A stretch of DNA of 64,000 bases from a virus: IMG/VR virus record IMGVR_UViG_3300009164_004047, positions 1 to 64,000 of that record, one strand, 5' to 3'. The position numbers and the translations under genes are program-made. Positions within the stretch are counted from its first letter, which is position 1; each line of letters starts with the position of its first letter. This document shows, one piece after another, positions 7,052 through 27,186 of this stretch. The notes under the pieces were generated by a model, which saw only the letters and a program-made list of their open reading frames with translations, searched no databases and was not told the origin of the DNA.

Positions 7052-8510
7052 TTCCATAACACCGTTGGAATCGATCGGCATCTCTGGGATCGTTGACCAT
7101 GGGCTCACCACGTATGTTGAGGCTGGTGTTTAACAGCATAGGGCATCCGGTCATCACATACCACTTTTCTAGTAGTTGTCGGATGCCTGATCCATCTCTA
7201 GGTACAGTTTGTACCCTGCTGGTGCCATCTACATGCACAATAGCAGGAAACTGACCTGGATCACGACATTCTGCTGTGACCTGCATGTATGGGCTGGTAT
7301 CGAAGTTAGGCGGCATATAAAAGTATTCTGCTGCGTATTCTTCTAGGATCACAGGTGCAAATGGTCGGAACTTTTGTCTGCGTTTGATCTCATTCACCCG
7401 GTTCTTGATTGAATGTCCTCTTGGGTCTGCTAGTAGACTGCGATTGCCCAGCGCCCGCGGTCCGAACTCTGCACGGCCTGATGCCACACCCACTATCTTG
7501 TCCGTGACTAGATGATCCAAGATTTCATTTACCGGGTAAGCACCGGGTATATTATGTCCCAGAAAAGTGTCTCGCCAATTAACACGGCCACCATGAGCCA
7601 AACAACTAGCACCGAGACTATTGCCAGCATCGCCCGGATTAGGCATAATCCAAATTTTTTCATAGTATTGTCCTAAGAATCTATTTGCCAGGCAGTTCAA
7701 TGCTACACCACCACCGTATACTAGATTACGGCTGCGGCCATGCTCTCTGGCTTTTTGTAGAACATCTCGTATCATGCTTTCCACTAGAAATTGTGCTGTG
7801 CTGGCAATGTTTGCAGGATCAGCATGAGGCAGAAAGTCATCGCCTACTCCAATGTGTAGATTCTGTTTAAAGCGGAGTCCAGGTATGGTATCTACTAACT
7901 GTTTTCTCATCTCGTCGAGATACAGTGGCTCACCATATGCTGCCATGCCTATGAGTATGTATTCTTCATCCATGGGCTTTAACCCTACACGAGCAGTCAT
8001 AGCCGAATAGAACAATCCAATACTATCAGGATATCGCAGACTCCACACTTTCTTGTATCGTGCTCGACCGTTTTCATACCAAGCATCCCAGATGGTCACA
8101 GTGTCAAACTCGCCAATGGCATCTATCACCACAACTGTGGCATCTTCAAATGGGCTGGTCTGGAATCCCCCTGCTGCATGACACAAGTGATGCCCATGTG
8201 TGTGTATTTTAGGACGCCCTATGATTCTGTATGAAGGTCCTAGTAATCGATCCCAACTGGGCCATTGAAATCCTTCACCGCTGCGTAGGTGTCGCATGGC
8301 TTTGATCCAAGGGCGTTCATAGTAGTGATACTCTAGTTTATCGGAATCTGTATGCGCTAATGCGTCCAATACAAGATGATCATTGAGATCCTTATCGTGC
8401 TTTTTCTTGCTGTAGCGTTCGCTGTGAGCAGCAAACAAGATATCGCCAGCCTGATTGACCACACTCACTGCGGCATCATGGAAGCCGGCTGAGATGCCTA
8501 TGTAATTCAT
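7035..8510 (-). CDS. O-carbamoyltransferase (NodU/CmcH/TobZ family)
   Basis: A 491-residue protein, shorter than typical family members of about 550-600. It opens with the ASKHA-type strand MNYIGISAGFHDAAVSVV. The metal-binding cluster THGHHLCHAAGGF is at 104-116 (the HHxxH signature). The C-terminal carbamoyl-phosphate/nucleotide domain is marked by GRAEFGPRALGNRS and KRRQKFRPFAPVI, followed by RDGSG and TGCPMLLNTSLN. The family makes carbamoyl-adenylate from carbamoyl phosphate and ATP and transfers the carbamoyl group to a hydroxyl of a sugar, antibiotic or Nod factor. It is the last gene of the long minus-strand operon and overlaps the upstream 33-residue gene by ATGA, so the two are probably translated together. 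Confidence 0.92.
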   Translation of the reverse strand: MNYIGISAGFHDAAVSVVNQAGDILFAAHSERYSKKKHDKDLNDHLVLDALAHTDSDKLEYHYYERPWIKAMRHLRSGEGFQWPSWDRLLGPSYRIIGRPKIHTHGHHLCHAAGGFQTSPFEDATVVVIDAIGEFDTVTIWDAWYENGRARYKKVWSLRYPDSIGLFYSAMTARVGLKPMDEEYILIGMAAYGEPLYLDEMRKQLVDTIPGLRFKQNLHIGVGDDFLPHADPANIASTAQFLVESMIRDVLQKAREHGRSRNLVYGGGVALNCLANRFLGQYYEKIWIMPNPGDAGNSLGASCLAHGGRVNWRDTFLGHNIPGAYPVNEILDHLVTDKIVGVASGRAEFGPRALGNRSLLADPRGHSIKNRVNEIKRRQKFRPFAPVILEEYAAEYFYMPPNFDTSPYMQVTAECRDPGQFPAIVHVDGTSRVQTVPRDGSGIRQLLEKWYVMTGCPMLLNTSLNIRGEPMVNDPRDADRFQRCYGIKVCS

Positions 8511-8608
8511 TTGTAGATAAAGGGATCGCGTTTGCGAAGTTCTCGCAGTTTTTTACGATAGCGTATCTCTAGTGTGATCTTTGCCCATAGTCTTTTAATC
8601 CAATTCAT
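8507..8608 (-). CDS. 33-residue basic protein ending in DPFIYK
   Basis: This small gene runs from ATG at 8,608 to TGA at 8,507. It overlaps the upstream gene's stop and the downstream carbamoyltransferase start, both as ATGA. The product begins MNWIKRLWAKITLEIRY, continues with a run of Lys/Arg/Leu (KKLRELRKR) and ends DPFIYK. It looks like one amphipathic, strongly basic helix. The double start/stop overlap and the absence of any other reading for these bases support a real gene. From memory, carbamoyltransferase neighbourhoods often hold a small DUF5989 protein that ends in PFIYTLF, and the shared PFIY tail could reflect the same role; this is a weak comparison. A peptide substrate of the nearby radical SAM enzymes is another, purely speculative, option. 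Confidence 0.75.
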   Translation of the reverse strand: MNWIKRLWAKITLEIRYRKKLRELRKRDPFIYK

Positions 8609-9681
8609 CGCATGCTCCTTATTTGTTGCAACTCATAATCGGCATCGCTCCACCGATACTCATATGTAGCCTGAGCACGATTGGTACGTATTTTATATAC
8701 ATCTAGATGAGTTTCCATCTGTCTCCATATTTCATCATGGTTGGTAGTACCGAAACTGCGAATTAAATCCACTTGGGCTACTTTTGGGTGGCCAATGGTC
8801 AGTGACTTGTCATCCGGATCAAACCCGTTTTGTGCGAGCCATGTTCTAAACTCAGCCAGTGCCCGGATCTGCCACTCATAAGACGCAGGATCTTTTGCCC
8901 ATTCGATATCAAAGTCACCGGCTGCTTCTGTCTGTGAACGTAATGCACCGGTGACCAATTCGCCTATCCGACTGTCACGCCCTTCGTCATTGAACACTTC
9001 CCAATGATGTTTGCCTACCGCTTTATTTACACCCACATACACCCCGCCTAGGCTTCGATTGATTGTTTCTATACCAAACAATTCGTAATCTTCTGCGTCT
9101 AGCACAAATCTTGGTGCTTTCAACCAACACATCAACTGTGATGGTCTGCGCCATTCAGGTGATTCAATCAGTCTGCGAATACTTAGAACCAGACTTTCAT
9201 GTTCGTGACACAACAAGTTCAACTGCCGTATATGCCATCGTGTTACATCATCTGCGGCAGTATAGTAAGGGCTCATGGCACCCGAGGTACCTTGGAGATC
9301 CTCAAAATATCTGTGCAATCGATTCATTAGATCTCGATTGACTCCGTCCCACCCCTTGGATTCTGTGTTTGATCCGGCAATCAACCAATCCGCGGACACA
9401 GTATTTTCCGGAGTGAATGAATCTGTGATCGTGTATCCTAACCCGGCTGAATTGATTGCTGTGATGCTGCGATTGATCTGTTCGCAAATATATGCAATTG
9501 AGCGATCACTGTTGGCCCATCCTAGCCAGCAGTAGTTTTTTTCTAGATGATAATTGTTTTGTACTAGATGATCAAGTGCAGCCAACCATTTGCGTGAAAG
9601 ACTATTATCTTCCACATCAATGTATACTGTTAGCACATGATCGTTTTTGTCACGTAAATCTATTTCAATTGTATCAAGCAA
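8605..9681 (-). CDS. Unidentified protein within the radical SAM operon
   Basis: A 358-residue protein I do not recognise. It is rich in Trp, Asp and Asn, with stretches such as YCWLGWANSDRSIAYICEQI near residue 50-70 and FGTTNHDEIWRQMETHLDVY near 315-335. There are no transmembrane segments, signal peptide, nucleotide-binding loop or cysteine cluster. The start overlaps the upstream radical SAM gene by 8 bases and the stop overlaps the 33-residue gene by ATGA, so it is translationally embedded between enzymes. The uniform composition and full length argue for a functional soluble protein. A role in the same pathway is inferred only from position. Confidence 0.6.
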   Translation of the reverse strand: MLDTIEIDLRDKNDHVLTVYIDVEDNSLSRKWLAALDHLVQNNYHLEKNYCWLGWANSDRSIAYICEQINRSITAINSAGLGYTITDSFTPENTVSADWLIAGSNTESKGWDGVNRDLMNRLHRYFEDLQGTSGAMSPYYTAADDVTRWHIRQLNLLCHEHESLVLSIRRLIESPEWRRPSQLMCWLKAPRFVLDAEDYELFGIETINRSLGGVYVGVNKAVGKHHWEVFNDEGRDSRIGELVTGALRSQTEAAGDFDIEWAKDPASYEWQIRALAEFRTWLAQNGFDPDDKSLTIGHPKVAQVDLIRSFGTTNHDEIWRQMETHLDVYKIRTNRAQATYEYRWSDADYELQQIRSMR

Positions 9682-10963
9682 TGTTCATCCACCATTTCAG
9701 TACATCGGGCCTTACCGACAGGATATCGGTCATAGTCACGGGTTGTGTTCTTATCTGTTCTAATTGTAACACACGAGTACGGCCTTGAGCAAGAGCAGAT
9801 TGGTATTGATCAGGCCATTGTTCTTCAAATGTAGGACGATTCTTCAACTGTGTCAATACATCTCGCATGGCGCCCGATGTATCTGCTATCAATTCATCTA
9901 GCCATGGTTCTAACAAGTGTCTAGGCAGAGCCAATGGGCTCATGATGATGTCCGGAGAGAATGAAAAGATGACTTTGGCTAGAACATCTACACCGAATTG
10001 TCTAGCGAGTTCTGTAATTTTGCCAACTTCGAACATTCCGGGCAGAGTGAGCGTAAAGTCAATTCTGACTTGACGAGGGTGACGCTGGATCGCAACTGCG
10101 TTACCGAAGTTTTCAAGCCATTGATCATAATCAAGACCTGTTCTAATGTATTCACCAATTGTGCCTGTACCGTCGAGACTTGCACATATCTGCCAATCGC
10201 GTAGCCCAGGAAGAACGTCGCGATAGAGATTGATGCCACGATACTCCACCCTGGATAAGTTTGTATTATATCTAGCATATACTTTCGGCCCATCCCCTAG
10301 TTCTATTATGCGTTGCATGTATCGCCAATGCTGTTCATACATCAATGGTTCGCCGCCCACCCAATATACTTCTTCTACTCTGTGCTGTTCTACAGCATCA
10401 CTGAACTCACGTTCAATTTGACTATCCTGGAACTTGGAGATCTGCTCACGTACCTCGGGCTGCATCCAGTTATTTTTAGGATTGCTCCAATTGACCATGT
10501 GATGTGTCTTTTGTTCCGACTCCCAACTACTACTCAGCATGTCTCCGCAGGTTCTACATTTGAAGTTGCACAGGTTGCTGAATCTATAATCCCAACTCAC
10601 TGGTTGCATGGTAGTGCGACCGGTAGCATCTGTTTGTTCTAAAATTGCGGAGTATTTATGTTGAAACAAATGGCTAAAGTATGTGCGATAAACATCAGTA
10701 TTCAAAAGTTGATCATTGCAGACCTCGCATTCAGGCAATCGTTCACCGGCCATCATGCGGCGCCGAACTGATCGCATGTGATCACCGTTCCAATGTTCCT
10801 CAAGGGTGATAGGAATATAGGTGCCGGTACCTGATTTAGTATCTATATATTGCTGGAAGTTTTGTGCTGGCTCGCGGCTAGCACAGCACATGCGCCTTTC
10901 AGTCTGTGGAGAGAGATAAGTGTGTACCCAAGGCGCTAAACATAGAGAATTAGGTTTTTGCAT
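9674..10963 (-). CDS. Radical SAM protein with N-terminal SPASM-like cysteines (group A, copy 1)
   Basis: A 429-residue protein. The radical SAM cluster motif CNFKCRTC gives Cys132, 136 and 139 (Cx3Cx2C), and the SAM-binding GGEP is at 203-206. Before the core lies a SPASM/twitch-like cysteine set: Cys8 in CLAPW, Cys26-Cys27, and Cys79/Cys82 in CEVC, with the usual EEHW...R spacing between. In classical SPASM proteins this module follows the core, so its order here is reversed. The family reduces SAM with a 4Fe-4S cluster to start radical chemistry; the substrate is unknown. The gene overlaps its neighbours by 8 and 14 bases. Confidence 0.88.
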   Translation of the reverse strand: MQKPNSLCLAPWVHTYLSPQTERRMCCASREPAQNFQQYIDTKSGTGTYIPITLEEHWNGDHMRSVRRRMMAGERLPECEVCNDQLLNTDVYRTYFSHLFQHKYSAILEQTDATGRTTMQPVSWDYRFSNLCNFKCRTCGDMLSSSWESEQKTHHMVNWSNPKNNWMQPEVREQISKFQDSQIEREFSDAVEQHRVEEVYWVGGEPLMYEQHWRYMQRIIELGDGPKVYARYNTNLSRVEYRGINLYRDVLPGLRDWQICASLDGTGTIGEYIRTGLDYDQWLENFGNAVAIQRHPRQVRIDFTLTLPGMFEVGKITELARQFGVDVLAKVIFSFSPDIIMSPLALPRHLLEPWLDELIADTSGAMRDVLTQLKNRPTFEEQWPDQYQSALAQGRTRVLQLEQIRTQPVTMTDILSVRPDVLKWWMNIA

Positions 10964-12161
10964 AGTTTAAAATATGTGCCAATTCCAGGGCTACCTTTTT
11001 TAGATCCTGTTGTCTGCGTTGATCTAATCGGCGTATCTGTTGTCGTGTTTCTTCACCGTCGGTCGATTCCCCGCGAATCATAAAGTCGATGATACGGCCA
11101 AACTCTGCACGAAATTGCTCAGGTGCCTCGCAAGTGCTGAGATAATCAGCAATGTGTTGTTTGGCATCAGATGGCAATCTTGAGATTGAAAAATACCATG
11201 CATCGTGCATCATGTTCCAATATACAAAATCAAAATCTTGTAATGCTATCCACAATGCCACTTCGTCAAGATATCGCACATTGAATACATTCACTGTGGT
11301 GCAGCATTGTAACTGCAAGTTAGGCATACCTTCTCTCATGAATCTAAAACGATCGATGTTCTCTTTTACTGTTCCCCAGGATGCATTTGAGCGTTGATAT
11401 TCAAAACGTGGCCCAATGTCATCAACACTAAACGCAATCTCTACAGTCTTAAAATGTTTCCATATTTCCGGGCCTCTCAACGGAAACAGCGTTCCATTGG
11501 TGTTGTAATGTATCTCAACCTGGCCAGCAATCCCACGATCCACTATTCCTTGTAACATATCAAAGTGCTGTTCGATCATGAATGGTTCGCCGCCAGTGAA
11601 TTCAATGTATCGTATATCGTCAAGCACACTATCAATCTGAGACCAGAAATGATCGTTATCTTTGGGCCATGCACCTGCTCGCAACATTTTGTAAGCATGG
11701 CTAGATTTTTGTTCGTTGCGCGGCATGAAAGAAATTTCTTCTCCGGCGAACTGTGAACTGGACCAGGAACCGCAGATCCTACATTTGAGATTGCAGATGT
11801 TCCCCAGTTTGAGATCTAAGAACATCAATGGTTTGGCATCCTGTGTCCAATGGTCATGCTTGAGCGTGTGTTTTAGACGATCTAGGGTGTGCATACGTTT
11901 TGATGTACGTCCTGCATCTTCTTCGTTCCAACATTTCCTACAAGTTTCTGGCTTTTGCCCTGCAAGGAATCCTGTGCGTAATTCGCGCATGTGATTGCTA
12001 TTTTGTATGTCAGCAAAGTCAGCCGTGGTTAATTCAAACTTGTTTCCATCGTTGTCTAGGATCTCATCGTCGGCCAAACAACAAGGTCTTACTGTGCCAA
12101 TGGGGCTGGCCTCTAGACTGATCCAAGGTAATACACAGAATTGATCGTGCGGCAAGTTCAA
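10950..12161 (-). CDS. Radical SAM protein with N-terminal SPASM-like cysteines (group A, copy 2)
   Basis: A 403-residue protein. The core motif CNLKCRIC gives Cys123, 127 and 130, and GGEP is at 190-193. The N-terminal auxiliary set is Cys9 (FCVLPW), Cys27-Cys28, and Cys74/Cys77 (CRKCW). The layout matches the genes at 9,674 and 13,411, so these are divergent paralogues rather than recent copies. The start lies 4 bases inside the preceding gene (ATGA). All cysteines expected for one catalytic and at least one auxiliary Fe-S cluster are present, so nothing suggests inactivation. The reaction and substrate cannot be assigned. Confidence 0.88.
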   Translation of the reverse strand: MNLPHDQFCVLPWISLEASPIGTVRPCCLADDEILDNDGNKFELTTADFADIQNSNHMRELRTGFLAGQKPETCRKCWNEEDAGRTSKRMHTLDRLKHTLKHDHWTQDAKPLMFLDLKLGNICNLKCRICGSWSSSQFAGEEISFMPRNEQKSSHAYKMLRAGAWPKDNDHFWSQIDSVLDDIRYIEFTGGEPFMIEQHFDMLQGIVDRGIAGQVEIHYNTNGTLFPLRGPEIWKHFKTVEIAFSVDDIGPRFEYQRSNASWGTVKENIDRFRFMREGMPNLQLQCCTTVNVFNVRYLDEVALWIALQDFDFVYWNMMHDAWYFSISRLPSDAKQHIADYLSTCEAPEQFRAEFGRIIDFMIRGESTDGEETRQQIRRLDQRRQQDLKKVALELAHILNYAKT

Positions 12162-13414
12162 AATAAAATCTTTCTATCTGCTTGTTTGAAAATCTCAACC
12201 AACTCATTGTATTGTGGATGATCAGGATTGTATATATTTTTCTGCTCGAATACCTCAGTTGACCAAGTGCCCCAGTTCCACATTTTCTGAAAATTAACAT
12301 TGGTGATACCCAACTGATCACAGAGTTTGACGAAAGCCGGAATTTCTTTATAGTTATCTAGTTGTACAACAAAGTCCGCAGTGATTTGAAGAGGGTGTTG
12401 GTTTTTTTTAATGATGTGTTGTACCCAACGAACATTATCTAACAATTGATTCCACTGTCCGTTGACTCTGATTTTTTTATAAGTTTCTTCTGTGGCAGCA
12501 TCAAAACTTATTCTCAATTCTTGTAATGTAGGAAGTAGTTTTTCTAACATGTCTGATTTAGATCGTAGATAACTCCCATTGGTTTGTATAATGTGTTTGA
12601 TGTTTTGTTTGCCAGTGGCCAGTATGTATTCCAACAATTCAATGTAAACATCACTGATAAACGGCTCGCCGCCGGCCCATCTGATTTCTATGGGTTGTGA
12701 TTGTATCTGATCAATTACAAGATGTTTGATTTTAGTTACTATTTGATCATTGATTGAACGGATGACATGATGATTGTTGTTGTTTATCAATTCAGTCCTG
12801 CAACTAGGGCATCGAAAATTACAAGTATAGTCAAAATCAAATATAAGATTTTTAGGAATTTCAGATACCAATAACTGGTCGTGACTCACAAATTCCAATG
12901 GCACGTGGTTTGATTGAGGATCACTGTGATATCTCTCTGGACTTACTTGTCCAAAAAATCCGCAGATCTGATTATTACAATAGAAATATCTTCCAGCAAC
13001 AATTTCTTGACGTATGCGTTGAGCAGATTCTGAATTCAAAACATCATATACATTGTCAACATGTAATATATTACCCACAAATTTTGGAACCCAACTTGGA
13101 CTACTACACACAAAAACTTCTCCGTTGTTGTTCACACCCATGGTACTCCATGGTACCTGGCATATCGGTTGCTCGTGATAATTTTTATCAAAAAATATCT
13201 GTTTCTGTCGTTGTTGATTATTTTCGGCAAGTATGCTGCCATCTATAGTTATATCTGAGTATGTTTGCTGCATCATGCTAACAAACTCATCAACTTCTCG
13301 TTGTATATCTGGATGGTCTGCAGGAATACCAGATATGATATCGTCTAGGCTTGGCCAAGAAGGTCCGGCAAATGTCTTATAGTCTAACTGACCGATGATT
13401 TTTTTTAAGTTCAT
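12158..13414 (-). CDS. Radical SAM protein with N-terminal SPASM-like cysteines (group A, copy 3, divergent)
   Basis: A 418-residue protein. The core motif CNFRCPSC gives Cys198, 202 and 205, and GGEP is at 248-251. The auxiliary module is further from the N-terminus than in its neighbours because about 75 extra residues precede Cys85 (CQVPW). The usual CC pair is reduced to a single Cys103 (FVCSS), and the last pair is Cys146 and Cys151 with wider spacing. The auxiliary cluster may therefore be ligated differently. Codon content is more AT-rich than in copies 1 and 2. It overlaps the gene at 13,411 by 4 bases (ATGA). Confidence 0.85.
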   Translation of the reverse strand: MNLKKIIGQLDYKTFAGPSWPSLDDIISGIPADHPDIQREVDEFVSMMQQTYSDITIDGSILAENNQQRQKQIFFDKNYHEQPICQVPWSTMGVNNNGEVFVCSSPSWVPKFVGNILHVDNVYDVLNSESAQRIRQEIVAGRYFYCNNQICGFFGQVSPERYHSDPQSNHVPLEFVSHDQLLVSEIPKNLIFDFDYTCNFRCPSCRTELINNNNHHVIRSINDQIVTKIKHLVIDQIQSQPIEIRWAGGEPFISDVYIELLEYILATGKQNIKHIIQTNGSYLRSKSDMLEKLLPTLQELRISFDAATEETYKKIRVNGQWNQLLDNVRWVQHIIKKNQHPLQITADFVVQLDNYKEIPAFVKLCDQLGITNVNFQKMWNWGTWSTEVFEQKNIYNPDHPQYNELVEIFKQADRKILF

Positions 13415-14670
13415 GTCAATGCCTGCAATTCAGGTATTACATCAAGCAAACGTTCTGCACGTATATCGTCTAGTTCATGTGTTTTACGCCAGAAGGTATC
13501 AATGAGATGTGTGTTGTCAGTGGCCATCATGAATTTAATAGCCGACTCAAACCCAACACTGGCACGTTGCAATGGATCATTGTCTCGCAACCAGTTAATG
13601 TGTTCTTGGTACTTCATCCGTAGACGTTGTTTGTATTTTATTGTAGCAATGTCGATTCTTAAATGTGCAGGATCTTGTAAGATGTTTACATTAAGGTCCT
13701 GCGGGCGTATCAACCCACGTTCAACCCAATCTCGATGAAAATCAGGTAAATGCCAAGCATTCATGATGCTTAGAGTAGGGCTGATGTAAAAATCTACATC
13801 AGGACATATTTTCAACATCTCTATCCTGTTTTGTTCAACACGATTCCAATCTGTACCTTTGCGTATATATTCAGCATACTTTGTTGATCCGTCAAGGCTG
13901 GCCCCCACTGCTACGCTGTCAAACTGTTTCCAATATTCAAAAACACTCTGCCCTTTTAGATCTGTATGTGTGAAGTTTGTATTGTAGATCAATCTCACAT
14001 CAAATCGTCCTCGACGAACAAGTTCATCTAAAATCCGATAATGTTCTTCCATCAGCAAAGGCTCACCACCGGCAAAGTATATCTGCTCTACATAATCGAT
14101 GTGAGGTAACAACTGTTCCCACATGTCAGTTTCTGTACGACCTGCGTAGTTTAATACCCGATTGCGATCTTTCCAGTCACCCCCGGCCAACTTGACCTGA
14201 TCCTGATACCATTGGCTTGAGAAGATATGCCCACAACTGCGACATTTGAGATTACAGAGATTTGAAAAACGTATGTCCCAATAGGTCATTTCAAAAGGAT
14301 TCTTGTCTAACTTTTTGATGTGATGACCATGATGTTTGTTTGCACTTTTGCGACCTGAAAAGAATCCCGATTGTTCTTGCTCGTAACAACGACCACAAGC
14401 AGCATTGGGTGTTTCATTCAACATATCTGCCCGTAACTGTTGCATGGGTTGATCTTTCCATATCTCTTCAAGTGTGCTGGATCTACAATTGCCCACTGGA
14501 TATTTCATCTCTGAGTGACAACAAGGATATGCTTCCCCGGTAGGGTAGGCATGTAGATGTATCCAAGGGTAAATGCAGAATGTTTTCGAATCTGTTAATA
14601 AGAATTCTTCACGTTCTGTGAGATCCACAGGCCTCACTAGATTTGTACTATTATATTTGTAATCACTCAT
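13411..14670 (-). CDS. Radical SAM protein with N-terminal SPASM-like cysteines (group A, copy 4)
   Basis: A 419-residue protein. The core motif CNLKCRSC gives Cys139, 143 and 146, and GGEP is at 201-204. The N-terminal auxiliary set is Cys32 (FCIYPW), Cys50-Cys51, and Cys92/Cys95 (CGRC), with EEIW...R between, which is close to the SPASM pattern. It overlaps the upstream gene by 8 bases and the downstream radical SAM gene by ATGA. It most resembles copy 1 (SNLCN, then CGHIFSSQW against CGDMLSSSW). Enzyme class is secure; substrate is unknown. Confidence 0.88.
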   Translation of the reverse strand: MSDYKYNSTNLVRPVDLTEREEFLLTDSKTFCIYPWIHLHAYPTGEAYPCCHSEMKYPVGNCRSSTLEEIWKDQPMQQLRADMLNETPNAACGRCYEQEQSGFFSGRKSANKHHGHHIKKLDKNPFEMTYWDIRFSNLCNLKCRSCGHIFSSQWYQDQVKLAGGDWKDRNRVLNYAGRTETDMWEQLLPHIDYVEQIYFAGGEPLLMEEHYRILDELVRRGRFDVRLIYNTNFTHTDLKGQSVFEYWKQFDSVAVGASLDGSTKYAEYIRKGTDWNRVEQNRIEMLKICPDVDFYISPTLSIMNAWHLPDFHRDWVERGLIRPQDLNVNILQDPAHLRIDIATIKYKQRLRMKYQEHINWLRDNDPLQRASVGFESAIKFMMATDNTHLIDTFWRKTHELDDIRAERLLDVIPELQALT

Positions 14671-15367
14671 ACAGATGTTGCCAATGTTGTAAAATTGTTT
14701 TTTCCAGATTTAAATTTAAATTTCCAACAAATGTACTTGGGGTCAGCAATACAAATTCTGAAAATTGTACGAGAAATTTTGTAATGTCAGAATGCAGTCG
14801 ATCTTCTTCATGCGAGTCGGCCCTGAACAGCACAAATTTGGTTTTTGAATTTCGACATTTTAAAACTATTTCATTCACATACTTTGTAAAATCATAAAAA
14901 CTGTTATCGCAGACTCTACTTAGTTGTAGCACTACATTTCTGTCAGTCAAGTCTGTTATCATTACTTGTTTCCATAACTCTTGATTGTTTTTGACTTTTA
15001 TAATCTGGCAGTTACTAGATGATGGGTTAAAATACGTGACTATATAACACCATGGAATCTGTGATTGTATGATCACATCCTGCCATTTTTTTAGATAGAT
15101 ACAGGTAGTCAAAGTTATATTAAAAATTGAGAGATCGTTATAGCTAAGTAGGTCTTGATCTAACATTATTAACAAATCAAATTTTTTACACATCAATCTC
15201 AAATAATCCACAGTTATGGTTCCAATATCTGTGTAATAACACCCAGGTAAGATGTCCAGTACAGATTCGATTAATAACCCGTTTAAGGGTATAGCATATT
15301 GTATTGATATCATCTTGGACTTGAGTGCGGTGTCCTCTGAACTATTACCTAGGCATAGTATTTTCAT
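14663..15367 (-). CDS. Unidentified AT-rich cargo protein
   Basis: A 234-residue protein starting MKILCLGNSSEDTALKSK. The ATG at 15,367 is chosen because it overlaps the stop of the upstream gene (ATGA); a longer in-frame start at 15,409 would lie inside that gene. Landmarks are YYTDIGTITVDY and FDLLIMLDQDLLSYND in the first half. I do not recognise a family. The gene is more AT-rich than the radical SAM genes on either side, as is its partner at 15,364, so the pair may be a later insertion into the operon. A hydrolase- or nucleotide-binding-like alpha/beta fold is suggested by alternating hydrophobic strands, but no catalytic motif can be named. Confidence 0.6.
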   Translation of the reverse strand: MKILCLGNSSEDTALKSKMISIQYAIPLNGLLIESVLDILPGCYYTDIGTITVDYLRLMCKKFDLLIMLDQDLLSYNDLSIFNITLTTCIYLKKWQDVIIQSQIPWCYIVTYFNPSSSNCQIIKVKNNQELWKQVMITDLTDRNVVLQLSRVCDNSFYDFTKYVNEIVLKCRNSKTKFVLFRADSHEEDRLHSDITKFLVQFSEFVLLTPSTFVGNLNLNLEKTILQHWQHLYE

Positions 15368-15996
15368 TGTTGCCAGGCCCGAGAACTTTCTTGAAACCAA
15401 TTTTTCCATAGCTTTGCAACCAGGCCAACATCTAGTTCTAAATTTAATTTTTTATCTAATAGAATAATCTGATCTAAATATGTATCCTCATTAAAAAAAC
15501 TATCAAACGGAATCGGGAGTAATCGATCTTGAAACATATTTTGTAATTTCAGTTGATGCTGATACTCATCATCAAAATCAAGATAATACTGTTTGGCTTT
15601 TTGATTGTTTATTAAAAAATCTTTATGGCTTGGAGTGACTTGAACTGAGATAACTTTTTCGTAGAAATTATCGCCCCACAATATATTTTTTGTATATTGA
15701 TTGTAAAAATCGACAGGATGCCATTGATCAATTAACCATAGTTTGGATTGTTCATAATGATAAAAATCAACTAGCCCACGTTTAAAATTTAAACAATCTT
15801 TGGTTTCTTCTTTTTTCCAGTTTTGGCTGTCCCATATTGAGTATCGATTGAATTTTTCTTCCGCAGTTAGTGTTTTTTCATATTCCCTGAGATCTCGTCC
15901 AGATGTTCCGGTGATTGTTTTCTCACTGAGAGTCAATGTTTTATACAACATATTTCCAGCAGACCCTGGCAAATAAATGATTGTTGCTTTTAACAT
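15364..15996 (-). CDS. Sulfotransferase-like P-loop protein (small)
   Basis: A 210-residue protein. The N-terminus IIYLPGSAGNMLYKTL has the shape of the 5'-phosphosulfate (PAPS) loop of sulfotransferases: a strand, then PGSxGN, then a helix. Sulfotransferases move a sulfo group from PAPS to hydroxyls or amines. The second PAPS site (a Ser/Arg motif) is not obvious, so the substrate and even the chemistry remain open. A counted 60-base sample (15,541-15,600) has 30% G+C, against 47% in the neighbouring radical SAM gene (13,561-13,620). It lies 6 bases downstream of the radical SAM gene at 16,003 and overlaps the next gene by ATGA. A gene with a similar loop lies at 62,097. Confidence 0.55.
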   Translation of the reverse strand: MLKATIIYLPGSAGNMLYKTLTLSEKTITGTSGRDLREYEKTLTAEEKFNRYSIWDSQNWKKEETKDCLNFKRGLVDFYHYEQSKLWLIDQWHPVDFYNQYTKNILWGDNFYEKVISVQVTPSHKDFLINNQKAKQYYLDFDDEYQHQLKLQNMFQDRLLPIPFDSFFNEDTYLDQIILLDKKLNLELDVGLVAKLWKNWFQESSRAWQQ

Positions 15997-16002
15997 AGTC
16001 GA

Positions 16003-17334
16003 TCAGAGAGTATGATACCAAGGTTTTAGTGCAGGAAATGCTAGATCAAAGCATTTGCCTCGACGCTGATCATATTGTGCGTAGAACTGCTTAAAGTCAT
16101 TCAGCAACTTGGGCCGATCAAATGCTTCTGAGTGCGGAGTTTTGACTATGTCAAGATAATCAATCAAGCGTTGAACATGATTGACTTCGTGCTCATGCAA
16201 GAATTCACTATTCCACCAAGAGTCAAGCCAGACTTCTAACCGTTGTCGAAATACCGTGCGTAGTTCGTCGGGCAACACCAAAGGTGATTGGAAACTAGGA
16301 AATCGCAGGATGTTCAAGGTAAAACTCACAGCATCACGGCCGTATTCTATTTTCCAGTTCATTATGCATTCCAAGAACTGATCCAGTGAGCACAGACACA
16401 ATGCATTGATTGTGTTCATGATGTGTATGCCACGGAACTTACCTGAATCAAGAAGTCGTTCCACATTGTTGGCCCAGTCATCCCATACTAACCCGTCTCT
16501 GATATATTCGGCTTGCAGACCTACACTTTCGTTGGATGTATATAAGTCAACTTCTAATCCATCAATGCTTGCTAACAATCGATCTAGATCCACCGCAGTG
16601 CCTAGATTTGAATTGATTGCCAAGCGTGTTTGGCTACGCCCTGGATTGTTCTTAAACCAGTCAATCAGTTTCCATGTCTCGCCCGACATCAGTGGCTCGC
16701 CACCGGTTATGCGGAGTTCTTGGAGGGTTCGATGTAGGTCCGACTCCCACCACGCAAAGAACGCCTCCACATAAGGATTGGTCTCACCGAAACTATAAAG
16801 CTGACTACTGCCATGATCGTGAGTAAAGTGATTCCTACCATCAGACACAAGACCTTGATAGGGTCCATTTTTACGAATGTCTCGAACCCAAGTGCTGCTG
16901 AATGCAGGATTACAATAACTGCAAGCAAATTGGCAAGTGCGGTCAAAAGCAATCTCCAAGGTACGGAGGTTGAAGTCTTGATCTGGTGAATTGGTATGTG
17001 CTTCATTTAACAACTCAATGGGGTAAATCTTACTCTTATACACACGGTCACTGATGGCATCACTGCCCATGTCTTCTATCTTCCAGCAATACTCACAACC
17101 AGCAGGGCGCTCGCCCTCAATCATCTTGCGACGATCCTCTTTCTTTTGATCAGTATTGTGCAGCAGCCTAGGGTTGGCCCGAACTTTATCAATGTCCACC
17201 AAATGGGCCGGCGGGTGATGGCAACTTGTAGTCATGCCACTTCCTAACCAGATGGTAGCATTGTACCATTTTGCTGCACAAAAACTTGCACTCTTGGTGT
17301 CTAGCACCTGTCGCTTGAATTCTAAATCGGTCAT
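16003..17334 (-). CDS. Radical SAM protein with N-terminal auxiliary cysteines (group B, copy 1)
   Basis: A 443-residue protein. The core motif CQFACSYC gives Cys134, 138 and 141, followed by NPAFSSTW, and GGEP is at 211-214. The N-terminal module differs from group A: Cys19 is in CAAKW rather than CxxPW, the CC pair is replaced by Cys38-His-His-Pro-Pro, and Cys80/Cys83 lie in CEYCW. The same pattern is in the protein at 18,433, so these two form a second subfamily. The His residues could be cluster or metal ligands. The gene overlaps the upstream TEKxxKP gene by ATGA. Substrate is unknown. Confidence 0.87.
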   Translation of the reverse strand: MTDLEFKRQVLDTKSASFCAAKWYNATIWLGSGMTTSCHHPPAHLVDIDKVRANPRLLHNTDQKKEDRRKMIEGERPAGCEYCWKIEDMGSDAISDRVYKSKIYPIELLNEAHTNSPDQDFNLRTLEIAFDRTCQFACSYCNPAFSSTWVRDIRKNGPYQGLVSDGRNHFTHDHGSSQLYSFGETNPYVEAFFAWWESDLHRTLQELRITGGEPLMSGETWKLIDWFKNNPGRSQTRLAINSNLGTAVDLDRLLASIDGLEVDLYTSNESVGLQAEYIRDGLVWDDWANNVERLLDSGKFRGIHIMNTINALCLCSLDQFLECIMNWKIEYGRDAVSFTLNILRFPSFQSPLVLPDELRTVFRQRLEVWLDSWWNSEFLHEHEVNHVQRLIDYLDIVKTPHSEAFDRPKLLNDFKQFYAQYDQRRGKCFDLAFPALKPWYHTL

Positions 17335-18443
17335 TGTTGTTGTAGGAATTGTAGAAATCGGTCAGGAAACTCCTGCCGGATCTTGGAACCCAGTTCCTTC
17401 ATATGTTGTTGATTATACTTACTTATTGCTTGGGCCGCAACCAGAAATTCATCTAAATCACCGGCACACAGATCTTGAACTATAGTGGCTATCCTATCCA
17501 ATCGGTCTTGATTGTTATCGATCAGATCAAACGATTCATCTATTAGAGTGTGATATGTTTGGAATCCTGCATGATGCAGATCTCTGTAAAAGCCACGATT
17601 GGCCACAACCACAAAAGGATGACCCATGGCCATGGGTTTGTAGATCTTTTCACTGCGTAGACTGTATGGATAATCACATACTGTTTCGGTGACTAAACTA
17701 AAATAGGTATCAATGTATGGCTCCGCACGGATGTATACGTCACCCCATTGGTTATTGAACAGTTCGTGTTTGATAAAAGCGTGTTCAAATTGATTTTGAG
17801 TGTTGTTATGATATCTCTCTACTTCATAATTGCTCGGCAACAAATGTATAGCAGATTGTCGACTCAATAAATCGGTCTGGTATGTATGATGATATACCAG
17901 TGTAGTGTCAAGATTGGTCCAAAGTGCATGTTCCAACAATTCGGCATCACGCATCTTTTCTATCATGTATTTTCTATGCGGGCGAGTACGGCCATTCAAG
18001 AACAAGAATTTGTAGGGCTTGTTTGTTTTGCTGTATATCTCATCCACTCGGCTGGATTGTTCCACATTTTGTTCATACCCAATCACCCGATTGAGATAAC
18101 AATCATACACTAGACAATTGAGTTCAGGTTCCATTTCGCCACACCCGACCAGCAAAAGTTTCTTTTGGGTTACTAGATCCAGCAGCCCTAGCCCCTGGCA
18201 TTGTAGTTTCAGAGTGCTTGATCCTTCACTAGGGTTGGCCAATACAGGTAAGAAGAATCCTTCTGTGGCCAATTCTTTTATCCTTGATGAGTACTGGTTT
18301 ACTGTTTGTCGAGCAAATATTGTGATTGAATTGGCCACAGGTTCATGCTGATCGAAATCCCAAAATGTATCATCTACTAGATGTTTGATTTCAGGATAGA
18401 TCTCACATTGAGTGTCACAGATGATAGTTCGGTTACCTAGCAT
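17331..18443 (-). CDS. Glycosyltransferase-like protein, TEKxxKP family (paralogue 3)
   Basis: A 370-residue protein. The middle contains KFLFLNGRTRPHRKYMI, an arginine-rich segment typical of exostosin-like transferases. The C-terminal family block is VTETVCDYPYSLRSEKIYKPMAMGHPFVV near residues 255-283, followed by HAGFQTY and DESFD, clearly related to the proteins at 4,746 and 5,864 on the other strand. It lies between the two group-B radical SAM genes and overlaps both (4 and 11 bases), which suggests that radical modification and glycosyl transfer act in one pathway. The role is inferred from the motif and from context. Confidence 0.6.
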   Translation of the reverse strand: MLGNRTIICDTQCEIYPEIKHLVDDTFWDFDQHEPVANSITIFARQTVNQYSSRIKELATEGFFLPVLANPSEGSSTLKLQCQGLGLLDLVTQKKLLLVGCGEMEPELNCLVYDCYLNRVIGYEQNVEQSSRVDEIYSKTNKPYKFLFLNGRTRPHRKYMIEKMRDAELLEHALWTNLDTTLVYHHTYQTDLLSRQSAIHLLPSNYEVERYHNNTQNQFEHAFIKHELFNNQWGDVYIRAEPYIDTYFSLVTETVCDYPYSLRSEKIYKPMAMGHPFVVVANRGFYRDLHHAGFQTYHTLIDESFDLIDNNQDRLDRIATIVQDLCAGDLDEFLVAAQAISKYNQQHMKELGSKIRQEFPDRFLQFLQQQ

Positions 18444-19806
18444 GTAGACTGCATTGTTTCCACCAAGAGATCATTTCAGGAAATGTTTTTTCAAAGTCTG
18501 TGCCTCTGCGGCGATCATGTTCGCTGAAAAATCTGTAAAAATCTGCTAGGTGTTGAGGGCTAGTTGTATTCAACGCTGATCGCATCCATGCTATATCACG
18601 CTCGAGCCGTTGCACTTCATAGTCCTTGAAACCATGAAACGGATCGGCCGCAGTTTCTAGGTTGGCCAACATAAAGTCTCGTGCTTGTTCTAGTTTTGCA
18701 GCATAACTTTCAGGCAAGGTCTGAAGGCTTTGCCATGCCGGTTGTCGCAGCACAGGTGTGTCAAACCACACACGCTGATATGTCTTGCTGTATTGGCGGC
18801 GTAGATCTAGTATCCATTGCATCAATGGCAGGAAGCCTGTTACACTTAAATTGTTCATTGTGATGATAAAGGTCAGACTATTACGATATGGAATGTCCGT
18901 GAGATATGTTTCCACATTGTTTTTCAATCTGTCAAAATCCAAGCCATGGCGTATGTATTCTGCTTGTGGGCCTATGCCCGAATCAAGGCTCACATACTGC
19001 ATGAAGTGTTCAATGTCAGTGCTGCATAGTCGTTGAACATAGTCAAAGTATTTTGTTGATAGTTCGGGCTCTACACTGAAGTTTGATGTCACGGCCAAAT
19101 GTAGATCGCTTTTTGGATTCTCCAACACATAGTCAAACACTCTGTAGGTGTTTCGATCCATCAGTGGTTCGCCACCGGTCATGCGGAAGTGTTTGAGTTC
19201 AGGATACAGACTAGGCCACCAAGCCCAGAATGCTTCTACATAAGGGTTGTGATCACGGGCAGGGATAGGCCTGCGGCTGCCGCTAAAATGCTCAGCAGCG
19301 TTATGAGGAACCAAAGTAGGAAATGCCCCGTGGCGTTCAACTTCTTGCTGCCAACTAGAGCTGAACTGCGGGCTGCAATAGCTGCATTTAAGGTTGCAGG
19401 CATTGTTAAAATTGACTTCCACATATGACGGTACGACATCTTCATCTCCAGTTGAGTTTTTTATCCGTTCAAAATCCACGGCTGCCCAGGGCTCACCAGA
19501 TCTATAATGTCGATCGCTGAGTTGTCCTAGATCTTCCATGTTCCAACAGTAACTGCATTCAGTGGGTCTCTGTTGTTGTAGCATTATCTTGCGTTGTTCT
19601 TTTTTATGCTGGGTATTATGCAAAGCAGCAGGATTGACAGCAATCGCAGCAGAATCTGTTGCATGCAAGGGCGGATGATAACAACTGTTATTTAATCCTG
19701 TAGTAAGATGCAAGCTGACCTGTTTCCATTTGGCCAGACACAATGCTGGCCCTAGATCTGTCTTCATCTGTTGAGCAGATACTATGAATTTACTTTGATC
19801 TGTCAT
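18433..19806 (-). CDS. Radical SAM protein with N-terminal auxiliary cysteines (group B, copy 2)
   Basis: A 457-residue protein. The core motif CNLKCSYC gives Cys137, 141 and 144, followed by SPQFSSSW, and GGEP is at 211-214. The N-terminal module has Cys23 (CLAKW), Cys42 in CYHPP, and Cys84/Cys87 (CSYCW). The layout is that of the protein at 16,003, including a similar NPYVEAFxAWW segment before the GGEP strand. The two are separated only by a glycosyltransferase-like gene. The start overlaps the upstream gene by ATGA. Nothing suggests truncation. Confidence 0.87.
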   Translation of the reverse strand: MTDQSKFIVSAQQMKTDLGPALCLAKWKQVSLHLTTGLNNSCYHPPLHATDSAAIAVNPAALHNTQHKKEQRKIMLQQQRPTECSYCWNMEDLGQLSDRHYRSGEPWAAVDFERIKNSTGDEDVVPSYVEVNFNNACNLKCSYCSPQFSSSWQQEVERHGAFPTLVPHNAAEHFSGSRRPIPARDHNPYVEAFWAWWPSLYPELKHFRMTGGEPLMDRNTYRVFDYVLENPKSDLHLAVTSNFSVEPELSTKYFDYVQRLCSTDIEHFMQYVSLDSGIGPQAEYIRHGLDFDRLKNNVETYLTDIPYRNSLTFIITMNNLSVTGFLPLMQWILDLRRQYSKTYQRVWFDTPVLRQPAWQSLQTLPESYAAKLEQARDFMLANLETAADPFHGFKDYEVQRLERDIAWMRSALNTTSPQHLADFYRFFSEHDRRRGTDFEKTFPEMISWWKQCSLHAR

Positions 19807-20792
19807 ACTCCAAATATCTTTGTAAAATCTTCTTCTGTTAATTCTAATAATCTATAGAGATTGTGATCCAAGATTGGAGTCATATCTTTGAACATAGATT
19901 CTAAATCTCTAATAGAGAGGCAGCTCAACTGTTGAATATTATCAATCATAGCCGGTACGTGGCACCCATCAGGGTCCTCACTATAGCCTTCGTCCCACCA
20001 CTTATTGAAAGTTTGAAACCCCAACCGTTTTAGATTGGGAATCAGATCAGCCGGTCCTTGAACCATAAACGGTGTACGCATCAATATTGGCCTCCATATT
20101 TTTTCATCTATATAAAAAGTATTGCCCTTGTTAAAAGTCAAGCTGACCAGCTCTAAGAAAAATCCAGGATAGTGATCTGTGATGTTGTATGTTAAATCCG
20201 GTCCAATGTAATCAACATCGATTGGATCTATTTTTATCGGTCCATGAGTTATCAGATCAAATGCCCAGGTCAAATTCTCTTTTGGTATGTTTATGTCACA
20301 CATCATATCCTCGATGCCAATAAATGATCGATGGAATGATTTTGAAACATCGCAATGATACGATTGCAAGGTCTGCGAACGATGATTGGCCCTTAGATAA
20401 CTTGCTAGATATAACCTCTCTTTGTTGCTGTGTCCGATAAAATGGCCAAAATGTCGTAAATCCTGATCAAACTTTTTAACGCTATCTACACCAGTGATAT
20501 ATTTTTTTTGTGCATTTTTTAGCTCGTAATTTTGGTGATGTTTTACTATGACGTAATCATGATGCCGTTCAATGAAATTAGCTGTGTGTATTTCTATCTG
20601 TTGTTTTGGGTAATTAAACACGCCACATATGTTATCAAGCAAGTCATATATGCCATTGCTTTGGCAGCAAGGACCTTCCCCATTAAGATCAATCCGGACC
20701 ACCGTTGGGTTGCTCTGTACTGCCTGTATTATCTCGATGATCACCCGATCACGATCTACAATCCTTCCTTCTGTGGTGACTAGTTTTATCAT
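19803..20792 (-). CDS. Glycosyltransferase-like protein, TEKxxKP family (paralogue 4); first gene of operon
   Basis: A 329-residue protein. The family block is FYIDEKIWRPILMRTPFMV near residues 232-250, then LKRLGFQTF and WWDEGYSED. The Thr of TEK is Asp and the Lys before Pro is Arg, so this is the most divergent of the four paralogues. It is the first gene of the operon that runs leftward to 7,035. Its ATG at 20,792 lies 31 bases from a divergent plus-strand gene, and the gap holds a perfect AT-rich palindrome. No good Shine-Dalgarno is visible. It is more AT-rich than the radical SAM genes. Confidence 0.55.
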   Translation of the reverse strand: MIKLVTTEGRIVDRDRVIIEIIQAVQSNPTVVRIDLNGEGPCCQSNGIYDLLDNICGVFNYPKQQIEIHTANFIERHHDYVIVKHHQNYELKNAQKKYITGVDSVKKFDQDLRHFGHFIGHSNKERLYLASYLRANHRSQTLQSYHCDVSKSFHRSFIGIEDMMCDINIPKENLTWAFDLITHGPIKIDPIDVDYIGPDLTYNITDHYPGFFLELVSLTFNKGNTFYIDEKIWRPILMRTPFMVQGPADLIPNLKRLGFQTFNKWWDEGYSEDPDGCHVPAMIDNIQQLSCLSIRDLESMFKDMTPILDHNLYRLLELTEEDFTKIFGV

Positions 20793-20823: not shown

Positions 20824-21414
20824 ATGTTTGAAATAATCTCAGAATTTGAAAATCGCATTGCACAATTTTACGGCAGTTCTTACGCTGTGTCAACTGATAG
20901 TTGTACGCATGCCATTGAATTGTGCCTACGTCATCAGAAATCCAACGATGTAAGCTGTCCTACGCAGACCTACGTTAGCATTCCGATGACATTTGAAAAA
21001 CTTGGGTTGCGCTGGTCCTGGAACGATCAATCCTGGCAAGACTACTACTACATCGGTGGAACAAATGTCATTGATGCTGCTGTGTATTGGCAAAGAGATG
21101 GATACATCAACGGTACCTTGATGTGCCTTAGCTTTCAGTTCCAAAAACATCTAAGCCTTGTACGAGGTGGTGCTATATTAACCAATGATCATGACGAATA
21201 CGTGGCACTTAAAAAACTAAGTTTTGATGGCAGGTATGGTAATTCTCCCTGGAGGGATCAAGACATCACCAGTCTAGGATATCATTACTACATGCCTATA
21301 GAAACTGCTAAATTAGGATTGGAAAAAATTGATGCTGCTATTTCTTCTATTCCAAGAAAATGGAGCCATCTGGATTACCCTTACCTCCCGGATTTTTCAG
21401 TATTTCAGAAGTGA
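20824..21414 (+). CDS. Miniature DegT/DnrJ-type PLP aminotransferase
   Basis: A 196-residue protein, against about 360-390 for normal members. It keeps the two cofactor landmarks: NVIDAAVYW, whose Asp84 fits the pyridine-binding Asp, and CLSFQFQKHLSLVRGGAILT, whose Lys108 fits the Schiff-base lysine. An early STDSCTHAIELCL segment fits the phosphate-binding region. The C-terminal small domain of ordinary members is missing almost completely. The open frame is intact, so this looks like a stable compact form rather than a wreck, though loss of activity is possible. It is the only plus-strand gene here, and its last 68 bases overlap the convergent SGNH hydrolase gene. Confidence 0.7.
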   Translation: MFEIISEFENRIAQFYGSSYAVSTDSCTHAIELCLRHQKSNDVSCPTQTYVSIPMTFEKLGLRWSWNDQSWQDYYYIGGTNVIDAAVYWQRDGYINGTLMCLSFQFQKHLSLVRGGAILTNDHDEYVALKKLSFDGRYGNSPWRDQDITSLGYHYYMPIETAKLGLEKIDAAISSIPRKWSHLDYPYLPDFSVFQK

Positions 21415-24990: not shown

Positions 24991-25315
24991 TTTCTTTTTT
25001 CTTCCAATATTGTCCTGGTTGATCATTTACCACAACAGTCACATCATTGATATGGCAAAGTGTTCCTGAATCTGCAGGTACGAGTTTGGTCATCCTGGCA
25101 GTTCTACGTCTAACAATTTTTCCATCAACAACGTTCACTGCCCGGTCCTGCAATGCAAATTGCTCGGGTGTGACATCAACATACTTACCGGGCAACTCTT
25201 CATGACTGTAAAATAATGGTAGTCCTGCATCATCATAGTAGAGCCTATAGTATACCGGCTTGGCATCAGTCCATTTGTAGTTGTGCCAAAACTCTAAAAA
25301 TTCTTGTTCAGACAT
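24971..25315 (-). CDS. Small phage protein of unknown function
   Basis: A 114-residue protein beginning MSEQEFLEFWHNYKW, with YRLYYDDAGLPLFYSHEELPG and a motif VRRRTARMTKLVPADSG in the second half. It has no signal peptide, membrane segment or recognised fold. It overlaps its upstream neighbour by 8 bases and the downstream glycosyltransferase-like gene by 20 bases, so it is cotranslated with sugar-transfer genes. I do not assign a function. Confidence 0.6.
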   Translation of the reverse strand: MSEQEFLEFWHNYKWTDAKPVYYRLYYDDAGLPLFYSHEELPGKYVDVTPEQFALQDRAVNVVDGKIVRRRTARMTKLVPADSGTLCHINDVTVVVNDQPGQYWKKKENVVETN

Positions 25316-27170: not shown

Positions 27171-27186
27171 TTGAGTATTATAAATG

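Follow-up and report, generated by a model that had tools for sequence, protein, structure and literature searches.

We analysed a stretch of 64,000 nucleotides (the window) from virus record IMGVR_UViG_3300009164_004047, a 78,266-bp record whose T4-type baseplate genes identify its source as a phage. Six radical SAM open reading frames, R1 to R6, lie in the window, all on the minus strand (Table 1). An initial annotation of this DNA had described six genes with intact Cx3Cx2C and GGEP motifs, and both motifs are indeed present in all six ORFs, once each; none of 2000 shuffled versions of each protein contained the two together. With these motifs in every sequence, and with the modelled core of R6 matching known members (see below), R1 to R6 belong to the radical SAM superfamily. 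The genes overlap from R6 through U3, except for a 6-base gap, and the T4 late-promoter octamer is not found in the window.

Table 1. Features of the cassette and its surroundings in the window. The last column gives presence among 45 complete loci.
Feature	Position	Strand	Description	Complete loci
Sugar genes	82..3127	+	NAD-dependent epimerase (82-1176), DegT aminotransferase (1164-2258), Gfo/Idh/MocA oxidoreductase (2255-3127)	
G13	3119..4747	-	C-terminal domain GTa-like (GTa family aligned to it by hhalign at probability 99.1, E 7e-19)	
Q11	4746..5867	+	Q7 relative on opposite strand; contains the common motif (see Q14)	23/45
Q9	5813..7051	+	Q7 relative on opposite strand	29/45
CARB	7035..8510	-	NodU/Nol-type carbamoyltransferase	42/45
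U3	8605..9681	-	Conserved cassette protein; predicted cyclophilin-like fold with helical insertions	42/45
R1	9674..10963	-	N-twitch radical SAM, group A; auxiliary Cys 8, 26/27, 79, 82; core 132-139; GGEP 203	45/45
R2	10950..12161	-	N-twitch radical SAM, group A; auxiliary Cys 9, 27/28, 74, 77; core 123-130	44/45
R3	12158..13414	-	Divergent accessory radical SAM; auxiliary Cys 85, 103, 146, 151 (Cx4C); core 198-205	1/45
R4	13411..14670	-	N-twitch radical SAM, group A, best family match; auxiliary Cys 32, 50/51, 92, 95; core 139-146	44/45
R5	16003..17334	-	N-twitch radical SAM, group B (CHHPP); auxiliary Cys 19, 38, 80, 83; core 134-141	45/45
Q7	17331..18443	-	Unclassified family, between R5 and R6	31/45
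R6	18433..19806	-	N-twitch radical SAM, group B (CYHPP), the radical SAM gene that comes first after GTa; auxiliary Cys 23, 42, 84, 87; core 137-144	45/45
Q14	19803..20792	-	Distant Q7 relative; common motif EK..KP....PF...GFqTF	14/45
Accessory genes	20824..24056	+ (partial DegT); - (others)	Partial DegT; DUF6071/SGNH-like, AMP-ligase, TctC-like (Pfam)	4-5 loci each only
GTa	24076..25026	-	Putative glycosyltransferase-like, conserved DGDN; obligatory first module gene	45/45
u8	24971..25315	-	Small conserved protein	33/45
GTb	25308..26084	-	Conserved cassette protein	41/45
GTc	26068..26868	-	Invariant DxD (LLLDADY), D97/D99	38/45
u4	26865..27269	-	Small conserved protein, flanked by S5 and GTc	34/45
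S5a	27233..28216	-	Homologous to a virion (tail) protein; modification acceptor candidate	
S5b	28234..29238	-	Second S5 copy, same family as S5a; 28% identity to PA5oct gp360 over residues 1-188	
S12	29251..30486	-	Tail-fibre-type structural protein; phrog_14394 virion structural, weak Peptidase_G2; homolog of Phosso g292	
S18	30539..31150	-	Conserved structural-block protein; phrog_11259; 55% identity to Phosso g293	

Each of the six proteins carries four auxiliary cysteines ahead of its core, in the pattern C-x17/18-C(C)-x~42-53-CxxC (Cx4C in R3). The auxiliary set thus precedes the core, as had been proposed. In 383 cassette orthologs of R1, R2, R4, R5 and R6 from other phages and the window, the auxiliary and core cysteines are 100% conserved (R1 69/69, R2 74/74, R4 81/81, R5 80/80 and R6 79/79). 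A second SPASM-like set at the C-terminus had been named as a sign against a permuted domain; the five family alignments contain no such set, only one or two isolated conserved cysteines per family beyond the auxiliary and core sets. Among these, R1 C260, R2 C287, R4 C289, R5 C313 and R6 C261 are candidates for a hydrogen-atom donor of the kind used by radical epimerases. A profile of the R4 family also aligned in permuted order with BtrN (4m7t): query residues 31-98 fell on residues 186-256 of BtrN, its C-terminal twitch domain, with all four twitch cysteines aligned, and residues 118-188, in the core, fell weakly on the BtrN N-terminus (residues 9-77), the core stretch alone not being significant. 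BtrN (2-deoxy-scyllo-inosamine dehydrogenase, a twitch radical SAM enzyme; 4m7s/4m7t) is the only solved twitch relative of the cassette enzymes recognisable with this profile. Its four-cysteine twitch is spaced similarly to the R4 module but follows the core, whereas the phage module precedes it, and the similarity is marginal (overall E 0.005).

We regard the module as twitch-like rather than SPASM because of its four cysteines, predicted single cluster and BtrN spacing. An auxiliary module before the core therefore stands, but its description as SPASM-like does not: by its cysteines it is of the twitch (BtrN/MoaA) type, for which one auxiliary cluster is predicted, and none of R1 to R6 has the seven cysteines after the core that characterise SPASM (TIGR04085). 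Pfam SPASM scored over its cut-off at the N-termini of R2 (residues 9-78), R3 (residues 85-137) and R4 and found no match in R5 or R6; TIGR04085 gave R4 17 bits against a cut-off of 27. Classical SPASM maturases (TIGR04085/PF13186) thus share a related auxiliary-cluster domain with the phage enzymes but carry it at the other end, with seven cysteines instead of four, and no precursor peptide was found among cassette ORFs of at least 90 aa. The permuted architecture itself already has an NCBIfam entry, NF033640 ('N_Twi_rSAM'). R1, R2, R4, R5 and R6 share its full-length architecture and score 285, 331, 387, 291 and 318 bits against a whole-protein cut-off of 170, whereas R3 falls below it at 102.5 bits. 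NF033640 is a family model, and neither its name nor the model includes a five-member phage cassette; to our knowledge, no biochemical function or reaction has been assigned to it.

R3 is further set apart by its Cx4C in place of CxxC and by an N-terminal extension of ~80 aa, and it aligns with the R4 family over both the N-terminal module and the core (hhalign probability 97). Its placement in the tree, flagged as a long-branch join, was not used. The proposed split into groups A and B is real: R5 and R6 (group B) form one fully supported clade that includes bacterial members, and group A comprises R1, R2 and R4, with R3 as a divergent outlier. The two groups are homologous over their full length, including the N-terminus (hhalign probability 99.8). 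A phylogeny had been suggested as a test of whether the paralogs arose by duplication inside phages. It gives that origin no support for R5 and R6, whose clades contain Bdellovibrionota sequences, and makes it doubtful for R2 and R4, next to which bacterial sequences branch.

Related loci were collected by a contig profile search with the R4 family. The carriers are large freshwater phages, whose normal set is five N-twitch radical SAM enzymes, extended to six here by the accessory R3. The same-strand order GTa-R6-R5-R4-R2-R1-U3 is fixed in 38 of the 45 complete loci, all from uncultivated large phages, and R2 and R4 are fused into one gene in loci L076 and L078. These enzymes, with GTa, U3 and CARB, follow S5, a virion-protein gene, and have NDP-sugar genes as neighbours. 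When loci were picked by S5 alone, GTa was present in 57 of 58 with 6 kb downstream, and a radical SAM gene followed GTa in 47 of 48. Phages that have GTa but lack the radical SAM genes keep extra GTa paralogs instead, as if the radical SAM enzymes were tailoring add-ons.

Among the neighbouring genes, CARB is a NodU/TobZ carbamoyltransferase by sequence, with both its C and N domains recognised (Pfam Carbam_trans_C 6e-50, Carbam_trans_N 3e-35; phrog_1601, 304 bits). The epimerase, DegT and Gfo/Idh/MocA genes are likewise identified by Pfam (E 4e-44, 1e-102 and 7e-10, respectively), and a G13-DegT-epimerase grouping recurs in other loci. The names GTa, GTb and GTc are provisional because Pfam and PDB profiles gave no confirmation: GTa matches Glyco_tranf_2_3 below the cut-off (E 0.0075; 2 of 25 members), and neither Pfam nor the PDB yielded a glycosyltransferase match for GTb, GTc or the Q family. 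The AlphaFold model of U3 (pLDDT 88.4) gave no significant Foldseek match; in VIA, cyclophilins made up nearly all of the top 50 matches (best Z 9.0 over 137 residues, rmsd 3.2). The VIA-align Z values of 8-9 behind the predicted cyclophilin-like fold are borderline, though the leading matches agree almost throughout.

The S5 relative PA5oct gp360 is annotated as detected by ESI-MS/MS, as are the PA5oct positional equivalents of S12 and S18. Two isolated jumbo phages, Phosso and Atu_ph07, also have several radical SAM genes in the slot that follows their S18/S12 homologs, but the products are C-terminal SPASM-type enzymes resembling the peptide maturases PapB, DynA and HxsB, and neither phage has an N-twitch member over the NF033640 cut-off. 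The enzymes surround a protein, gp170 in Atu_ph07, with a conserved C-terminal tail, (F/Y)CHxSCHASCHxSRSRR, the remainder of which is 38% identical. Such a Cys/His tail is absent from S5, u4 and u8 in every cassette locus, and among cassette ORFs of at least 90 aa none looks like a RiPP precursor ending in a tail rich in Cys or His.

A tblastn search of 50,697 phage records with R4, R6, R2, U3, GTa and GTc did not find the cassette in any named phage. U3, GTa and GTc had no match, and distant radical SAM matches were confined to a 7.9-kb marine virus record and the Vibrio phages K566/K567 and CZ01. K566 has two N-twitch genes that exceed the NF033640 cut-off. The number of radical SAM genes, which the initial annotation had called unusual for a phage, is extraordinary beside isolated phages but has precedents: sixteen sampled phage records held 7-21 N-twitch enzymes each, one T4-like marine phage, TARA_ERS488813_N000010, has 12 radical SAM genes (PMC5332604), and pelagimyophage host-recognition islands contain radical SAM gene cassettes, together with glycosyltransferases in a tail-fibre island (PMC7029224). 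The available text of these two sources reports no permuted architecture, fixed five-gene order or linkage to S5, GTa, U3 and CARB.

Bacterial relatives occur in several settings. A Bacteriovoracaceae contig encodes homologs of R2, of R4 and, more weakly, of U3 with carbamoyltransferase, DegT and apparent ABC polysaccharide-export genes, and close GTa homologs adjoin N-twitch enzymes in Bdellovibrionota. An Elusimicrobia MAG encodes fusions of N-twitch proteins with TPR-like repeats; lone N-twitch members lie near housekeeping genes in Flavobacteriales, and N-twitch proteins also occur in a Paenibacillus cluster with ketoacyl-synthase genes.

The AlphaFold model of R6 (pLDDT 90.9, pTM 0.89) places C23 ahead of strands 29-33 and 38-40, followed by C42 and a helix (residues 82-92) carrying C84 and C87. 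Matches to this model concern its core, since a permuted domain is beyond VIA and Foldseek, which both follow the order of the sequence. The nearest Foldseek match was BlsE (E 4e-6), and VIA returned SkfB, DesII and BlsE (Z 13.8, 13.4 and 13.2). The sugar-acting enzymes DesII and AprD4 are among the best matches, and the core leaves the substrate class undecided because SuiB, SkfB and viperin rank high too.

We tentatively favor, as quite possible, a phage-encoded decoration pathway tied to a tail-protein gene, in which radical steps tailor a carbamoylated sugar that is put on the tail protein. GTa, with GTb and GTc, would assemble or transfer the sugar. The radical SAM enzymes would generate a 5'-deoxyadenosyl radical from the core cluster, with the single auxiliary [4Fe-4S] cluster of the front twitch module positioning the substrate or accepting an electron, as that of BtrN does, and would act successively on the sugar by oxidation, dehydration, epimerisation or coupling. 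The sugar would also be carbamoylated and the product attached to the tail protein, most simply S5, where it may mask the virion or alter host recognition. This reading draws on the order and overlap of the cassette genes, the S5 linkage, the ESI-MS/MS annotation in PA5oct, the extra GTa paralogs of phages without the radical SAM genes, the flanking carbamoyl and sugar genes, the bacterial neighbours, the proximity of the R6 core to BlsE and the link to BtrN; the borderline or absent glycosyltransferase matches argue against it. Several successive steps in one pathway, as initially suggested, are plausible given the fixed five-gene order and the gene fusions. A more specific version, with the five permuted-twitch enzymes acting in sequence, from one late transcription unit, on the tail protein or its glycan, and with entry through R6, which in most cases is the radical SAM enzyme encoded next after GTa, is possible and is put forward with added caution.

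The predicted fold of U3, which would suit a protein substrate, and the peptide-maturase-like enzymes in the slot of isolated phages also count against a sugar, and lend themselves to the main rival, in our view unlikely: that a tail protein is itself modified post-translationally by radical chemistry, in a RiPP-like maturation of S5, S12 or u4. The radical SAM enzymes would then crosslink the protein, epimerise its residues or alter side chains in other ways, with U3 as a chaperone or isomerase and sugars in a secondary role. The TPR-like repeat fusions would fit such a role, as would the CHxS-tailed protein of Phosso and Atu_ph07; however, the enzymes around that protein lie outside the N-twitch family, its tail has no counterpart on the cassette proteins listed above, no peptide-sized ORF appears to be conserved, and the sugar and carbamoyl genes are left without explanation.

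A sugar might instead be placed on the host O-chain or capsule, excluding competing phages. Such a role has been proposed for glycosyltransferases of the pelagimyophage islands that also gain radical SAM cassettes (PMC7029224), and the bacterial relatives beside surface-polysaccharide genes would agree with it. We consider it distinctly unlikely, as the cassette has no export or lipid-carrier gene and its overlapping genes sit within the structural block in fixed linkage to a virion-protein gene. Chemistry on small molecules, cofactors or nucleotides that has nothing to do with surfaces, such as hypermodification of a base or synthesis of an antiviral-like nucleotide, would be compatible with the versatility of radical SAM chemistry and with the Flavobacteriales and Paenibacillus settings; but the location of the cassette in the tail block, apart from genes for replication or nucleotides, and its carbamoyl- and amino-sugar genes make this quite improbable.

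Radical SAM enzymes with auxiliary clusters perform some of the hardest chemistry in biology, and BtrN, the solved relative, is an aminocyclitol dehydrogenase. Many phage contigs keep the cassette in fixed order behind a tail gene, and its product therefore matters to the phage. The cassette offers a defined enzyme set for reconstitution and a test of whether an auxiliary module functions at either end of the barrel, and it indicates a new means by which phages may change what their tails display. If true, a five-enzyme tail pathway would be the first virion decoration built by radical SAM enzymes.

All six minus-strand radical SAM (rSAM) ORFs of the initial annotation, here R1–R6, were recovered. 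Each contains one CxxxCxxC and one GGEP, a pairing of core motif and GGEP found in 0 of 2000 shuffles of each protein, and four cysteines ahead of the core. These are spaced C-x17/18-C(C)-...-CxxC in R1, R2 and R4 (group A) and in R5 and R6 (group B); the divergent outlier R3 has instead a Cx4C and an N-terminal extension. Among orthologs from other phages (69 for R1, 74 for R2, 81 for R4, 80 for R5, 79 for R6 and five for R3) every one of the seven cysteines (four auxiliary, three core) is 100% conserved, and no second cysteine set was found C-terminal to the core. Since pairwise identity among R1–R6 is just 24–35%, we regard them as old paralogs. One additional cysteine after GGEP is nearly invariant in each family with the N-terminal twitch-like module ('N-twitch'), at differing positions (R1 C260, R2 C287, R4 C289, R5 C313, R6 C261), and could possibly act as a hydrogen-atom donor.

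The proposal that an auxiliary cysteine module, which would bind a cluster, precedes the core was borne out as to position, although the layout is not new: the NCBIfam model NF033640 ('twitch domain-containing radical SAM protein') describes exactly this arrangement. R1, R2, R4, R5 and R6 score 285–387 bits against its cut-off of 170 bits; R3, at 102 bits, falls below it. Pfam SPASM exceeds its cut-off at the N-termini of R2, R3 and R4. When a profile of 28 R4 orthologs was run against solved structures, BtrN was the sole match, with profile positions 31–98 aligned to BtrN 186–256 (including its four twitch cysteines) and, weakly, 118–188 to BtrN 9–77, as expected of a permuted domain order. 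With an overall E-value of 0.005 and no significance for the core stretch by itself, this alignment supports the permutation rather than proving it. Profile–profile comparison matches the R4 family to the R6 family over the full length (probability 99.8), N-terminal cysteines included. The predicted R6 model (pLDDT 90.9, pTM 0.89) runs from a cysteine through a beta-hairpin, a second cysteine and a CxxC-bearing helix to a barrel whose closest solved relatives are SkfB, DesII and BlsE.

A viral contig scan returned at least 548 relatives, and almost all of the best 80, taken with up to 10 kb per side, encode four or more N-twitch enzymes. In the 45 loci with both flanks complete, R1, R5, R6 and GTa (a putative glycosyltransferase-like protein) are always present, R4 and R2 occur in 44, and U3 and a carbamoyltransferase in 42; the R4 count is circular and the others are not, since loci were selected via R4. 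The same-strand order GTa-R6-R5-R4-R2-R1-U3 is kept in 38/45, whereas R3 is accessory (1/45). Genes from R6 through U3 overlap, save for a single 6-base gap. Fusions of R4 to R2 and of R1 to another N-twitch domain favor joint action, in keeping with the several successive radical steps first proposed, although the order of reactions is something we infer; assembly error is disfavored for the R4–R2 fusion because it is seen in two loci (78% identical to each other).

Features located in the window and in related loci
Feature	Location	Strand	Remarks
rSAM ORFs R1–R6	window 9674–19806	(−)	
Two accessory ORFs between R4 and R5	window 14663–15996	(−)	248 and 210 aa; without family; three loci each
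Weak seventh rSAM match	G000:C1:64734–65264	(+)	full record, beyond window; 34 bits; core only, without N-terminal module
R4–R2 fusion, one ORF	L076:9983–12197		
R4–R2 fusion, one ORF	L078:9965–12520		
R1 fused to another N-twitch domain	L038:14631–17087		
CHxS-tailed protein, Phosso	L315:30415–31335		tail conserved, rest 38% identical to Atu_ph07 protein; three or four SPASM-type rSAM genes around; tail block
CHxS-tailed protein, Atu_ph07 gp170	L316:9001–9891		as for Phosso

U3 matched no family. Its predicted model (pLDDT 88.4) resembles cyclophilins with insertions, which fill the VIA list nearly throughout (best Z 9.0 over 137 residues); Foldseek returned nothing significant. As a borderline working idea, U3 may be a proline-isomerase-like or substrate-binding partner.

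The density of rSAM genes, initially called unusual for a phage, has precedents: earlier reports count twelve in a T4-like marine phage in 2017 (PMC5332604) and note rSAM cassettes in host-recognition islands of pelagimyophages in 2020 (PMC7029224). It is nonetheless high, with 7 to 21 matches in each of sixteen longer records (148–347 kb). One phage contig of 346,856 bp holds 21 NF033640 matches, most above cut-off. In the openly licensed literature we found no earlier description of phages with the permuted module, of the conserved five-gene order or of the tail-protein linkage.

A tree of 134 proteins runs counter to the suggestion that groups A and B arose by duplication inside phages. R5, R6 and bacterial relatives form one fully supported clade, in which R5 and R6 each have their own Bdellovibrionota neighbors. 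R4 and R2 also have bacterial sequences beside them; no close bacterial relative of R1 was found within this set. Because of these placements, we conclude that the two groups split before the phage cassette arose. Further rSAM genes are abundant near bacterial N-twitch genes (31/85 neighbors in one set), and GTa homologs occur among those neighbors in Bdellovibrionota. Five chromosomal Bdellovibrionota loci (L130, L131, L137, L138, L140) combine N-twitch and other rSAM genes with GTa homologs 34–42% identical to one phage GTa, and are an uncharacterized bacterial multi-rSAM cluster. One Bacteriovoracaceae neighborhood holds a carbamoyltransferase, a weak U3 homolog and, recognized by eye, DegT and apparent polysaccharide ABC-export genes. 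Elsewhere, six N-twitch rSAM genes stand in tandem on an Elusimicrobia MAG contig, several of them preceded at the N-terminus by long TPR-like repeat regions, and a lone Paenibacillus N-twitch rSAM lies among ketoacyl-synthase, carrier-protein-like and reductase genes.

Upstream of the rSAM set lie S5, u4, GTc, GTb, u8 and GTa, and the flanks hold the carbamoyltransferase and epimerase, DegT and Gfo/Idh genes. S5, classed as a virion (tail) protein homolog, resembles PA5oct gp360 (28% identity across 188 residues, E 1e-5), whose annotation records its detection by ESI-MS/MS. The adjoining PA5oct gene block matches that of the window in order, but PA5oct lacks the cassette. The window's baseplate wedge protein is 31–34% identical to jumbo phage versions (e.g. 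GAP32, SCTP-2, Phosso). In a scan with S5, independent of the R4-based choice of loci, GTa is present in 57/58 loci with enough sequence, with rSAM genes behind it in 47/48. In a second scan, with distant GTa sequences, 35/64 loci carry rSAMs, and many of the others hold additional GTa paralogs. On the basis of these two scans, we consider S5, the small genes and GTa the base, and the rSAM set a tailoring part.

The strongest rival explanation is that the rSAMs act on a protein substrate, by analogy with the distant isolated jumbo phages Phosso and Atu_ph07. There, rSAMs with C-terminal SPASM domains, like peptide maturases, lie behind homologs of the same structural-block proteins S18 and S12, which suggests that unrelated rSAM forms are drawn to the tail region. 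They flank a 296–306 aa protein ending in (F/Y)CHxSCHASCHxSRSRR, a tail reminiscent of a RiPP core but borne by a phage protein, and a protein substrate looks likely in those phages. The window's S5 has no such tail. The best reading of the cassette is a decoration pathway beside a tail protein, presumably expressed late, that would combine sugar, carbamoyl and radical steps; because the rSAM cassette is tightly linked to S5, the virion would be the likeliest destination of that decoration.
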